NCBI GenBank assembly: GCA_029567095.1
Contig: JAKQLP010000098.1
Location: forward strand, 1-42,232
Reading direction: 5' to 3'
From: a bacterium
GTDB taxonomy: Bacteria; Patescibacteriota; Dojkabacteria; B142; OLB20
DNA length: 42,232 nucleotides
Shown: piece by piece, positions 11,402-15,626 of the stretch
Numbering within the stretch: position 1 is the first letter of the stretch
How the letters are laid out: the number at the start of each line of letters is the position of its first letter
Position numbers and translations under genes: made by a program
The notes under the pieces: model-generated
Told to the model about the DNA's origin: nothing
Databases searched by the model: none
Seen by the model: only the letters and a program-made list of their open reading frames with translations

Positions 11402-12223
11402 ATGAATACAAGAGCCAATTTTGAATTGAATAAGATTTATAGGGATGATTATGGGCGTCCTAATGGCATTTTACTAATGAACAAAGAAGCGGGTATCTCT
11501 TCTCATGATCTAGTAGATAAAGTTAGAAGAAAATTAGGAACAAAAAAAGTGGGTCATGCAGGAGCCCTTGATGTGTTTTCCAGTGGGCTGATGTTAATTC
11601 TGGTCGGTAAAGCTACAAAATTAGCTAACGAATTGTTGGGACTTGATAAAGCATATATTGCGAGAATGGTCTTTGGGCTTTTCAATTACACTCAGGATCC
11701 CGAAGGAGAATTATTATCAATTAAAAGTAGAGTATTGCCTGAAAAGAATGCTATTTCTGTCCTTTTGCAGAATATGATCGGGGCAAATAAACAGTTTGTA
11801 TCAATCTACAGTTCTGTAAAAGTTAATGGTGTTAAATTAAGAAAGTTATTGAGAGACCCCAGATATATATTTGAGATCGAAGAAAAGGATGATATTAAAA
11901 AGATCATTCTTAAAAGAAGAGAATCTCAAGAGCTAATAAAAGAAGTTGTTGTGCCTAGAAGAGATATAACGATATTTGATATTAAATTATTGAATAGTGG
12001 ATTCCTTAAAGGAGCAGATCTTCCTTTTCAAGGGTTAGCCCCTGAAGAAGAGTATGGATTCGCTGATATTTATGTTAAATGCTCCAAGGGCACATATATT
12101 AGACAATTAGGCGAAGACATAGCCAAGGCTTTAGGTACAACAGCAGTACTTGCACAGTTACAAAGATGCGAATTAGGTCAATATGATCTAACCAAAACGA
12201 TAGGATTGGATGAGATTGAATGA
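11402..12223 (+). CDS. truB: tRNA pseudouridine-55 synthase
   Basis: TruB makes pseudouridine 55 in the T-loop of tRNAs. The core GILLMNKEAGISSHDLV and KVGHAGALDVFSSGL are present, the latter with the catalytic Asp (Asp59 by count) in the family GHTGTLD position. The later KCSKGTYIRQLGEDIAKALG block is also typical. The segment after SSVKVNGVKL is unusual: the common YxLAR-G-x-R motif is replaced by about 40 charged residues before the VPRRDITIF strand. A 10-bp tandem duplication lies at the stop codon. The gene ends 10 bases before the convergent M23 gene. Confidence 0.94.
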   Translation: MNTRANFELNKIYRDDYGRPNGILLMNKEAGISSHDLVDKVRRKLGTKKVGHAGALDVFSSGLMLILVGKATKLANELLGLDKAYIARMVFGLFNYTQDPEGELLSIKSRVLPEKNAISVLLQNMIGANKQFVSIYSSVKVNGVKLRKLLRDPRYIFEIEEKDDIKKIILKRRESQELIKEVVVPRRDITIFDIKLLNSGFLKGADLPFQGLAPEEEYGFADIYVKCSKGTYIRQLGEDIAKALGTTAVLAQLQRCELGQYDLTKTIGLDEIE

Positions 12224-12233: not shown

Positions 12234-13463
12234 TTATTCTGCTAAATGCAGATAGAAAGTGTATTTCCCTTGATTACAGTTATCTTTGGTTTCACAGATC
12301 TTTCTCCAATAACCACTACTCCAGCTTCCTCCTTTATACATCCAGCCATCATGTGCTGCATAGATATAGGCGTGGGTGTTAGGAGATGCAATATCTATAG
12401 CGTCATGCCATTTACCCCAGCGCCATCCATATGCAGAAGTATAATAGAAAGGGCTTCTAAGAGGCCATTCTATAGATCCATTACCACCACAGCCACTGAT
12501 TACACCGGAAGGCAATAAACTACAAGGGTTAACTGAAGAGCCATTGACCTTAGTTCCAAAATGAAGATGTGCTCCACCCGGACCTGAGGGAATTACATAA
12601 CCCGAATATCCTTGTCTGCCGATTATTGTGCCTTTTAGCACATAAGTGCCACTTCCTAGATTTTTAATATTATTGAACAATTCCTGTTCAATTTTATTCT
12701 GCATGGCCAATGTTTTCTGCTCTTCTTCTGTATAGATGCTGATCAAATTATTATTCTGCTGAATTGAGGCTGTAACTTCATTACGTTTTTTGTAAAATAC
12801 TGCTCTTTGCTGATCGAGCTCTGTTTGCTTTGTGGATAGGACTTGTTTTTCCTCTTCCAATGTCGTTTGGTCCTTAATTACTTGAGCTTTATTCTGTTCC
12901 AGCTCAACTTGTTTTGATTCTAATTCTTGTTTTTGGAAATTAAGATTACTTAACATGGCGTTGGTCTCCATCTGGAATGAATTCTGGTAGACACTGTATT
13001 TGATAATATCTGTACCTTGGGAAGAAAAGAACATATCAATTTGCGAAAAGGTCTTTTCATCAATATATATATCAACTAATCTTTTATCTGTTTCTTCCTC
13101 TAACTTCCCAATATCCAGCCTCGCCTGCTCTATTTGTTTTGTAGTAGTATCGATGTTTTGAGTAAGTATTTCGATTTGCAGATTTAATTCCTGAATGATC
13201 AATTCCTTTTCTTGGATCTCATTATCAAGCAGATCTATCTGAGACTGAAGTTTAAATATTTCAGCACTATAAGCGTTTTGGAGACTTTTATCACTATTAA
13301 CCTTGCTCTGGATATTGTTTTTCTCATTACGTATCTCTTGTAGTTTTCTTTGAACTTCCTGTAAGTCTTCCTGAAGTCCGGCCTTTACAGATAAAGGAGT
13401 AATGCCAAGCAGTAATATGGAGATTATGAGGATCGTATTTAATCTGATGAGCAATGATCTCAT
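12234..13463 (-). CDS. Coiled-coil M23 (LytM) peptidase with circularly permuted catalytic domain; EnvC/PcsB-like partner of FtsEX
   Basis: The 409-residue protein has a signal peptide (1-28, VKA cleavage site), a long coiled coil (about 30-265) and a C-terminal M23 metallopeptidase region. In ordinary M23 domains the order is HxxxD, then the YxHL histidine, then the final HLHF. Here HLHF comes first (His299, His301), preceded by VLKGTIIGRQGYSG, then HDAID (His353, Asp357), and the protein ends at YTFYLHLAE (His406). Every zinc and catalytic position is present, but the domain is cut open between YLHL and the KG-x-IIG strand. The gene is 20 bases after ftsX, as expected for a wall hydrolase controlled by FtsEX. 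Function is inferred from motifs and context. Confidence 0.88.
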   Translation of the reverse strand: MRSLLIRLNTILIISILLLGITPLSVKAGLQEDLQEVQRKLQEIRNEKNNIQSKVNSDKSLQNAYSAEIFKLQSQIDLLDNEIQEKELIIQELNLQIEILTQNIDTTTKQIEQARLDIGKLEEETDKRLVDIYIDEKTFSQIDMFFSSQGTDIIKYSVYQNSFQMETNAMLSNLNFQKQELESKQVELEQNKAQVIKDQTTLEEEKQVLSTKQTELDQQRAVFYKKRNEVTASIQQNNNLISIYTEEEQKTLAMQNKIEQELFNNIKNLGSGTYVLKGTIIGRQGYSGYVIPSGPGGAHLHFGTKVNGSSVNPCSLLPSGVISGCGGNGSIEWPLRSPFYYTSAYGWRWGKWHDAIDIASPNTHAYIYAAHDGWMYKGGSWSSGYWRKICETKDNCNQGKYTFYLHLAE

Positions 13464-13483: not shown

Positions 13484-14413
13484 TTAATATATATATTTTC
13501 TGATGGCTATGATACTGTTGAATGCTCCGACTACTGCGCCAAAAAGTAAAGTGCCAGCAAGTAGCAGGATATATTGCATAATATCTAAACTGGGCCAGGA
13601 TAGATTCCCGAACAAATTGATAATGAAAGTTACAGCAGCGCTAGTTTTATTAACGTAAAAGATAGCAAAATACAGAATGAAAATAATGGAGTTGGCGATA
13701 AAAGAGCCGACCATGCCATAGAAAGCTCCCTCCAGAATGAACGGCGAACGGATAAACCAGAGACTTCCTCCTACCAGCTGCATAATCCCAATCTCTTCGG
13801 CACGAGAGAATGTTCTGAATTCTACTGTTAACAATGTGAATAGGAATATCACTACTAATAGGAGCCCAATAATAATTCCCCCTCCCAATCTTAACCAGTA
13901 AAAAAGTGTACGGATCATATCAATTGATTCTTTGGAGTAACGAACAGCAAATATGTCTGCATTATTGATCTTTTCTTGGGAGAGATAACTGATCATTTCA
14001 TCAGCATCTTCAATTTTATTAAGTCTGATCCCAAGGCTGGGTGGCAAGACATTGGACCTAATGTTTTGGGCAAGTTGAGGATCTTTTCTTTCCTGAACTT
14101 CTTTAAATTCGGTTATAGCTCCCTTCTCATCTGTGTATTCAACATGCAGCACTTCATCCATGGCTACAAGTCTGTCATTTAATTCTTTAATCTTTATCTC
14201 TTCAGTTCCTGCATTGAAAAAAACATAGATATGCGGCTTATTTTCTATTGATAATAGAAACAGATTTGATAAATAGGCAAGAAATAGGAAAATACTAGCT
14301 ATGAAAAATGCCAAACTCATGACTAAAACCGAAGCCCAGGCTAGCCAGCCACTTCTTCTGATCTGTTTTTTAGTATTATCTATTGATCTATTTAGGGATG
14401 TAAGTAAACTCAT
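13484..14413 (-). CDS. ftsX: Cell-division ABC transporter-like permease FtsX
   Basis: FtsX is the membrane half of FtsEX, which converts ATP hydrolysis by FtsE into activation of wall hydrolases outside the cell. The 309-residue protein has one N-terminal transmembrane helix (about 23-54), an exported loop of roughly 120 residues (with HIYVFFNAGTEE at its start) and three C-terminal helices, the standard FtsX topology. The EEIGIMQLVGGSLWFIRSPF block after the second helix is the conserved coupling region. It lies 11 bases after ftsE and 20 bases before the M23 peptidase. Confidence 0.95.
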   Translation of the reverse strand: MSLLTSLNRSIDNTKKQIRRSGWLAWASVLVMSLAFFIASIFLFLAYLSNLFLLSIENKPHIYVFFNAGTEEIKIKELNDRLVAMDEVLHVEYTDEKGAITEFKEVQERKDPQLAQNIRSNVLPPSLGIRLNKIEDADEMISYLSQEKINNADIFAVRYSKESIDMIRTLFYWLRLGGGIIIGLLLVVIFLFTLLTVEFRTFSRAEEIGIMQLVGGSLWFIRSPFILEGAFYGMVGSFIANSIIFILYFAIFYVNKTSAAVTFIINLFGNLSWPSLDIMQYILLLAGTLLFGAVVGAFNSIIAIRKYIY

Positions 14414-14424
14414 TTTCTAATATA

Positions 14425-15570
14425 TTAAGATTTATACTTCTTGATCGCCTTGTTTACTGCTTTGAGCTGAATATCGGTTAGTTTGTCGATATTACGTAAC
14501 TGTTCATTGCCAGCTTCAATTAAGTCATTAATATCTCCATAACCTTTATCCCTTAGGTATTTCTTTAAGGACTTATTTAAATCCATGTCTTCGATCTTAA
14601 TAGCATCCTTGTTAGCTGAATCTTCCTTTACTTCACCATCTTCCGTTTTAGTATCTTCCTCGATTTTGACCTCTGCGCTAATTTCTTCTTTTTTGGCTGT
14701 TAGTACAACCTTAGGTTTCTTCTTGATCGAAAAGGATATTTTCTTTTTTGAAGCTGGAGCTTTTTCGATAGTTTCTTTTTCAACTATGGGAGTGCTCTCT
14801 TCAATTGCAGGTTCAATTTTCTTGACCTGGCTTTTTAGTTTTACCGGCTCTTCCTGTGTGGACGTGATGATTTTTAAACTGTATTCATCCACATCATCAT
14901 AGCCACCCTTAAAATCATCTCTCACGATCTGACCGTTTTGAAGGCGAATGACTCTTTTATGCATTGAATTAACAATGTCAGAGCCATGGGTGCTCATAAG
15001 AACTGTAGTCCCCCAGTTGTTAATTTTGTATAGGATTTGTGCTATATCCCAAGCTGACTCGGGATCTAGATTCCCTGTGGGTTCATCAGCTATCAATAAT
15101 TTGGGATTATTAGCCATGGCCCGAGCAATTGCTACTCTTTGCTTTTCTCCTCCTGATAATTGGTAAGGAAAAGCTCTCATTCTATGGGTAAGCCCTACTA
15201 TGTCTAATAGATAAGGAACATTTTCTTTAATCTCACTGTCTGGTTTACCAGCAGCTTCCATGGCAAAGGCAATATTCTCATATGCTGTAAGTTCATTAAT
15301 AAGCTTGAAATCCTGAAAAATCACTCCGATCTTCCTTCTAAGTTGATATACCTTTTCCCTATTAAATCTAGTTATATCTTCATCATCGAAGTATATCTTG
15401 CCAAGGGAAGGTACTTCTTCTCTGATTAGTAATTTGATGATAGTAGTTTTGCCTGAACCTGAAGGACCTACTAAAAAAACAAATTCACCATCCTCAATAT
15501 TAAAATTTAGCTCATTGAGGGCTGTATAGTTATTGTCGTAAGTTTTTGAGACAGTTACAAATTGAATCAT
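14425..15570 (-). CDS. ftsE: Cell-division ATPase FtsE with long C-terminal tail
   Basis: The first 225 or so residues are a standard FtsE ATPase: Walker A GPSGSGKT (35-42), Q-loop VIFQDF (about 84-89), signature QLSGGEKQRVAIARA (137-151) and Walker B LLIADEPTGNLD. Unlike ordinary FtsE (about 220-230 residues), it continues for about 155 residues. The linker is highly charged and rich in Lys and Glu (about 227-328). The last 50 residues (SLKKYLRDKGYGDINDLIEA to KYKS) look like a helix-hairpin-helix-type bundle. The ATG at 15570 is chosen over the TTG at 15576 because it gives the usual start MIQFVTVSKTY. The tail is cytoplasmic and of unknown role. Confidence 0.94.
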   Translation of the reverse strand: MIQFVTVSKTYDNNYTALNELNFNIEDGEFVFLVGPSGSGKTTIIKLLIREEVPSLGKIYFDDEDITRFNREKVYQLRRKIGVIFQDFKLINELTAYENIAFAMEAAGKPDSEIKENVPYLLDIVGLTHRMRAFPYQLSGGEKQRVAIARAMANNPKLLIADEPTGNLDPESAWDIAQILYKINNWGTTVLMSTHGSDIVNSMHKRVIRLQNGQIVRDDFKGGYDDVDEYSLKIITSTQEEPVKLKSQVKKIEPAIEESTPIVEKETIEKAPASKKKISFSIKKKPKVVLTAKKEEISAEVKIEEDTKTEDGEVKEDSANKDAIKIEDMDLNKSLKKYLRDKGYGDINDLIEAGNEQLRNIDKLTDIQLKAVNKAIKKYKS

Positions 15571-15626
15571 AATCAATTGTTATAAGTATATAGTTTATAT
15601 AAATACAGGCATTTATGCAATTAAAA

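Follow-up and report, generated by a model that had tools for sequence, protein, structure and literature searches.

Few cell-wall enzymes are as common as the M23 peptidases, whose definition rests on the order in which their motifs occur. We have analyzed a gene from a member of the Dojkabacteria (Patescibacteriota) whose product carries the motifs of an M23 domain in another order. The question raised by this locus is whether such a protein holds one complete but rearranged domain or the remains of several, and what it would do next to the cell division genes ftsE and ftsX. The stretch of DNA analyzed, referred to here as the window, comprises positions 1-42,232 of contig JAKQLP010000098.1 (assembly GCA_029567095.1). 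The features that bear on the question all lie on the minus strand and are listed below, with the evidence for each in brackets.

12234..13463, minus strand: 409-aa ORF, product predicted to be secreted, with a coiled coil and a circularly permuted M23 domain (ATG start; Pfam, homologues)
13380..13463, minus strand: putative signal peptide, residues 1-28, a hydrophobic run ending VKA-G (by eye; predicted helix 2-18)
12663..13376, minus strand: coiled-coil hairpin of two helices, 30-142 and 152-267, presumed to bind FtsX (AF2 model, Foldseek)
12504..12653, minus strand: residues 271-320, the C-terminal half of the M23 fold, here in first position (half-domain HMM; Pfam positions 57-96)
12558..12569, minus strand: HLHF, residues 299-302, with predicted catalytic H299 and Zn ligand H301 (motif, conservation)
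12483..12503, minus strand: residues 321-327, the linker that connects the ancestral C-terminus to the ancestral N-terminus (half-domain HMM, rotation scan)
12237..12482, minus strand: residues 328-409, the N-terminal half of the M23 fold, here in last position (half-domain HMM; profile-profile alignment)
12393..12407, minus strand: HDAID, residues 353-357, with predicted Zn ligands H353 and D357 (motif, conservation)
12243..12254, minus strand: YLHL, residues 404-407, with predicted catalytic H406, three residues before the C-terminus (motif, conservation)
13484..14413, minus strand: ftsX (PF18075 FtsX_ECD, PF02687, NCBIfam FtsX models)
14425..15576, minus strand: ftsE with a C-terminal extension of ~165 aa (TIGR02673 FtsE above cut-off, residues 3-216)

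The genes follow one another in the order ftsE, ftsX and M23 ORF, separated by gaps of 11 and 20 bp. A first-pass annotation, made from the sequence alone, had placed the M23 gene at 12234-13160; the motif order that it described is borne out, but its extent is not, as it left out the first ~100 codons of an ORF that reaches 13463. A scan of genome contigs with single-protein patterns returned one close relative; the closest named relative is Candidatus Dojkabacteria (L037, 57% identity), which places the window in that lineage of Patescibacteria. We also considered whether a missing remainder of the domain might be hidden 3' of the YLHL stop; this was excluded, since the next gene is a convergent truB that ends at 12223. 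The FtsE extension is charged and of low complexity, with a short helical segment at its end, and no Pfam family matched it above cut-off. Five further M23 proteins (L001-L005) are encoded in the same genome; the motif order is ordinary in L001, L002 and L005 according to half-domain models and in L004 by eye.

Reviews describe the M23 family by H(x)nD followed by HxH, and in InterPro the domain boundaries are set at Hx3D and HxH (PMC9662197). The linear order HxxxD, YxHL, HxH is not found in the window protein. Its M23-type domain of ~140 residues instead reads V-x-x-G-x-x-IG, HLHF, HDAID and YLHL, followed by AE and the stop. The Pfam family PF01551 matches above cut-off in two stretches, and it is the earlier part of the protein that matches the later profile positions, 57-96. 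When the two halves are rotated in silico, the match becomes a single stretch covering positions 3-96 of 96 and the score rises from 36.3 to 47.0 bits. Profile-profile alignment to an ordinary-order M23 template gave the same picture. In the native order, query positions 56-141 align with template positions 4-85 and query positions 3-48 with template positions 83-128; after rotation there is one alignment of 124 columns to positions 4-129 of the 131 in the template, with an E value of 4e-44. The two halves tile the whole ordinary fold with an overlap of ~2 columns, no gap and no repeat. The split Pfam match, the gain on rotation and the profile-profile alignment all uphold the circular permutation proposed in the first-pass annotation, as the single full-length match upholds its statement that nothing is missing once the order is rotated.

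The arrangement is not peculiar to the window protein. All 29 aligned relatives (29/29) have the same motif order, with H, H, D and H invariant, and the permuted order was checked protein by protein in 75 distinct sequences. For a rotation scan, a model derived exclusively from domains of ordinary order was used to score 74 permuted ones. The best rotation point fell inside the linker in 70 of the 74, where 20% would be expected by chance, and the mean best score increased from 41 to 78 bits after rotation. Each half is present once, the order of the halves is swapped and the ancestral ends are joined, and by the evidence of these alignments the C-terminal domain of the ORF is one complete M23 domain with its halves exchanged.

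Two other explanations of the motif order bear on the same data. Two separate degenerate M23 domains in tandem, each without one half, would share their history with a permutation that arose by duplication and loss of the outer halves. This alternative, already named in the first-pass annotation, is disfavoured by the tiling of a single fold by the two halves; moreover, the extra half is present in no member and the order is conserved in 75 proteins, so that we consider it highly improbable. The other is an error of assembly or binning, a concern because the window comes from a fragmented assembly of 143 contigs. The same order recurs across dozens of genomes (75 distinct proteins), among them the single-contig genomes G017, G271 and G300, and the chance that an artefact accounts for it is negligible.

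The domain, read as a single permuted M23 unit, has the residues expected of a zinc peptidase. The Zn ligands H353, D357 and H301, the catalytic histidines H299 and H406, and also Y404 are all found in the window protein. Four of the five metal and catalytic residues are kept in all 74 untruncated permuted domains and all five in 70 of them, in agreement with the claim of the first-pass annotation that every such position is retained; the Zn ligands of H(x)nD and HxH are each conserved in 70 to 74 of the 74 relatives. In distant permuted domains (L030-L036) the first zinc histidine stands, by eye, two or three residues further from the aspartate than in HxxxD. The second catalytic histidine, that of YxH (H406 in the window protein), is present in 74/74 and lies at the end of the chain, whereas in the M23 fold it normally lies ~30 residues before HxH. 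The chain ends two residues after this histidine in 38 of the 72 proteins with a recognizable YxH, and mostly within five residues in the others. The new C-terminus is tightly placed, with the catalytic histidine 2-5 residues from the end in most members.

The new termini fall where the YxHL strand would otherwise be followed by the V-x-x-G-x-x-IG strand, at the position given in the first-pass annotation; this is none of the loops L1-L4 that line the groove. In EnpA these loops join strands 1 and 2 (L1), 4 and 5 (L2), 9 and 10 (L3) and 10 and 11 (L4) (PMC8269130). Since the cut between the YxHL strand and the strand that follows it spares all four, it would be consistent with retained catalysis.

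Compared with the M23 family at large (PF01551; LytM, lysostaphin, EnpA, ShyA), the window protein has the same five metal and catalytic positions, the tyrosine Y404 and every segment of the fold, and it gives a full-length match once rotated; it differs in that its halves are in the opposite order. It resembles EnvC in having a putative signal peptide, a coiled coil similar to that of 8tzl by Foldseek, a C-terminal M23-type domain and the link to FtsX. In EnvC the motifs stand in the ordinary order, the zinc site is degenerate (PMC11627006) and the N-terminus of the LytM domain is preceded by a restraining arm (PMC7668044), whereas the window protein has all of its zinc-site residues and its coil runs into a different strand. 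Among the LytM-containing partners of FtsEX none is better known than EnvC, whose zinc ligands have been lost (PMC11627006). By its example the permuted domain might also be a non-catalytic regulator that activates an amidase encoded elsewhere. The window protein does not have the zinc-less, degenerate domain that marks such an activator. A pure regulator would not need the zinc ligands and both catalytic histidines that 70 of 74 members retain, and we regard this role as unlikely.

Like the EnvC, PcsB and RipC class generally, the window protein is predicted to be secreted, combines a coiled coil with a cell-wall domain at its C-terminus and is genetically linked to ftsX. PcsB and RipC are FtsEX-activated hydrolases with CHAP or NlpC/P60 domains. 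The window protein is like them in having the predicted hydrolase directly on the coiled coil and its gene beside ftsX, and some permuted relatives have a weak match to the CC_PcsB family; PcsB and RipC are cysteine peptidases, whereas the window protein would be a metallopeptidase. Circularly permuted NlpC/P60 domains (YaeF/G6R, LRAT) offer a precedent for permutation in a superfamily of peptidoglycan hydrolases (PMC6403190), although theirs is a papain-like fold unrelated to M23. We found no description of a permuted M23 domain in the open-access literature; subscription papers were outside the scope of this search and we claim no priority. A sequence-profile search of the PDB likewise found no chain in the permuted M23 order.

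The structure of the isolated domain was predicted with AF2 as one compact domain (pLDDT 88.6, pTM 0.85; five models between 86.6 and 88.6), with the strands located as in M23. The full-length model scored lower (pLDDT 80.4, pTM 0.54) because of the long coil. With the full-length model, Foldseek matches include FtsEX-bound EnvC (8tzl), the N-terminal domain of RipA (6ewy) and, more weakly, PcsB (4cgk). With the isolated-domain model, Foldseek, which aligns sequentially, returned nothing from the PDB, M23 structures included, though matches to half-domains at least were expected. We infer from the models that the two halves fold into one ordinary M23 barrel in which the five residues would meet at one zinc site.

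The same residues could in principle be brought together in trans, the first half of one chain pairing with the second half of another in a domain-swapped dimer. Such a swap is compatible with the sequence, and coiled-coil chains lying side by side could permit it. We consider it improbable for three reasons. AF2 folds a single chain compactly (pTM 0.85); no member has too short a linker, and in some, where almost none is left, the ancestral ends evidently lie side by side; and solved complexes show one EnvC or RipC per FtsX dimer (PMC11627006, PMC10694151).

The profile search of Patescibacteria genomes that the first-pass annotation had proposed was run with a profile of the permuted domain, and 381 genomes were covered. 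Matches were counted if they spanned at least profile positions 30-150 within one open frame; the counts are lower bounds, as weak matches fall outside them. The permuted domain was found at full length in at least 103 of the 381 genomes, belonging to 44 families, and at least 76 of these genomes, from 36 families, fall outside the class of the window genome. The unlabelled relatives that had been anticipated do exist: Pfam splits permuted proteins into two M23 fragments, so they are present in databases without being recognized as permuted. The linkage to ftsEX seen in the window also recurs, with ftsX directly upstream and on the same strand in 79 of 96 permuted ORFs (duplicates included); FtsX itself was found in 377 of the 381 genomes. 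The permuted arrangement is conserved in a large family of Patescibacteria proteins, usually encoded directly after ftsX.

There are exceptions to this linkage. In family f12 of the same class as the window genome (L014, L017-L022) the permuted gene lies away from ftsX with its architecture unchanged, and L230 (G015:C22:77500-82500) is a second permuted M23 protein, an open frame of 341 aa with a membrane anchor and without the long coil. These cases suggest that FtsX is not always the partner. Other genomes combine the two forms. In G140 (L125:506-2945) two M23 genes follow ftsX in tandem, the first coding for a permuted form and the second for a coiled-coil protein of ordinary order, and L060 (G165) has both permuted and ordinary forms. 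In other Patescibacteria the ftsX-adjacent genes encode a similar coil with a CHAP, C39-like or ordinary-order M23 domain. Since ordinary M23, CHAP and C39 domains occur on similar coils beside ftsX, the FtsX partner appears to be an exchangeable slot for catalytic domains. CHAP or C39-like domains on ftsX-adjacent coiled-coil proteins were observed in L164, L177, L107, L109, L100 and L159; the C-terminal domains of L164 and L177 are C39-like by eye and have no Pfam match.

Mobile elements were also searched. Matches in Microcystis phage seemed at first sight to be permuted, judging by coverage, but the protein has the ordinary order. Plasmid matches were to half-domains only, none reaching 80% query coverage, and a scan of viral contigs with the window protein found no relative. 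Foldseek of the domain model against viral models (BFVD) gave one significant match, A0A510E7V3_3 (1191 aa, E 7.3e-4, TMq 0.54), which may be an M23 protein of viral origin in permuted or tandem form.

The usual evolutionary route to circular permutation is duplication of a domain followed by loss of the outer halves. Among the permuted proteins inspected there were no intermediates with 1.5 domains or an extra retained half. A tree was built from 74 permuted domains, rotated, and 44 ordinary domains over ~144 columns. The permuted or ordinary label changes 6 times on this tree, as against 35.6 times in shuffles. A constraint that places the permuted domains in one clade was not rejected (p-AU 0.575), and the constrained tree was better by 5.6 log units. 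Because the domain is short, this makes a single origin compatible with the data rather than proven. Transfer of the permuted domain between lineages is possible.

How FtsEX might control the enzyme can be considered by comparison with characterized systems. It is established that the coil regions of EnvC (PMC7668044), PcsB (PMC11627006) and RipC (PMC10694151) hold these proteins in an inhibited state, from which the FtsEX cycle frees them. Gene order and the resemblance of the coils suggest that the coiled coil of the window protein would likewise bind the extracellular domains of FtsX; as in those systems, it would keep the permuted domain inactive until the ATPase cycle of FtsE frees it. 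If the halves form one barrel with one zinc site, the window protein would hydrolyse peptidoglycan itself, unlike EnvC. By analogy it most likely acts as a peptidase at the septum, which FtsEX would activate by way of the coiled coil.

The restraining arm of EnvC continues into its LytM domain at the N-terminal end (PMC7668044). In the window protein the second coil helix enters the V-x-x-G strand after ~5 residues, and the linker ties the ancestral N-terminus to the ancestral C-terminus. With the coil helix running into this strand and the strand of the catalytic histidine left as a free C-terminus, movement of FtsX may reach the domain at a different point than in EnvC; this is the part of the proposal of which we are least sure. 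Taken as a whole, the locus is in our judgment probably best explained, from sequence, as encoding a secreted, FtsEX-associated M23/LytM zinc endopeptidase with a circularly permuted catalytic domain. A broader proposal, which we hold tentatively and with rather less than even confidence, is that a single ancient permutation of M23 gave rise to a standard FtsEX-controlled septal hydrolase in much of the Patescibacteria, and that placing the coil on an inner strand and the catalytic histidine strand at a free C-terminus changed how the force from FtsEX opens the enzyme.

The occurrence of the permuted domain in about a quarter of the sampled Patescibacteria means that the order of motifs in M23 is not fixed, and that annotation by motif order, together with the domain boundaries drawn from it, is wrong for this family. 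The family is also a natural experiment on the control of hydrolases by FtsEX: linkage to ftsX has persisted although the coil connects to another strand, and the need for the restraining-arm geometry of EnvC thereby becomes testable. To our knowledge cell division has hardly been studied in this phylum, and for many Patescibacteria the permuted protein would now put a name to the enzyme that, by analogy, is likely to cleave the septum.
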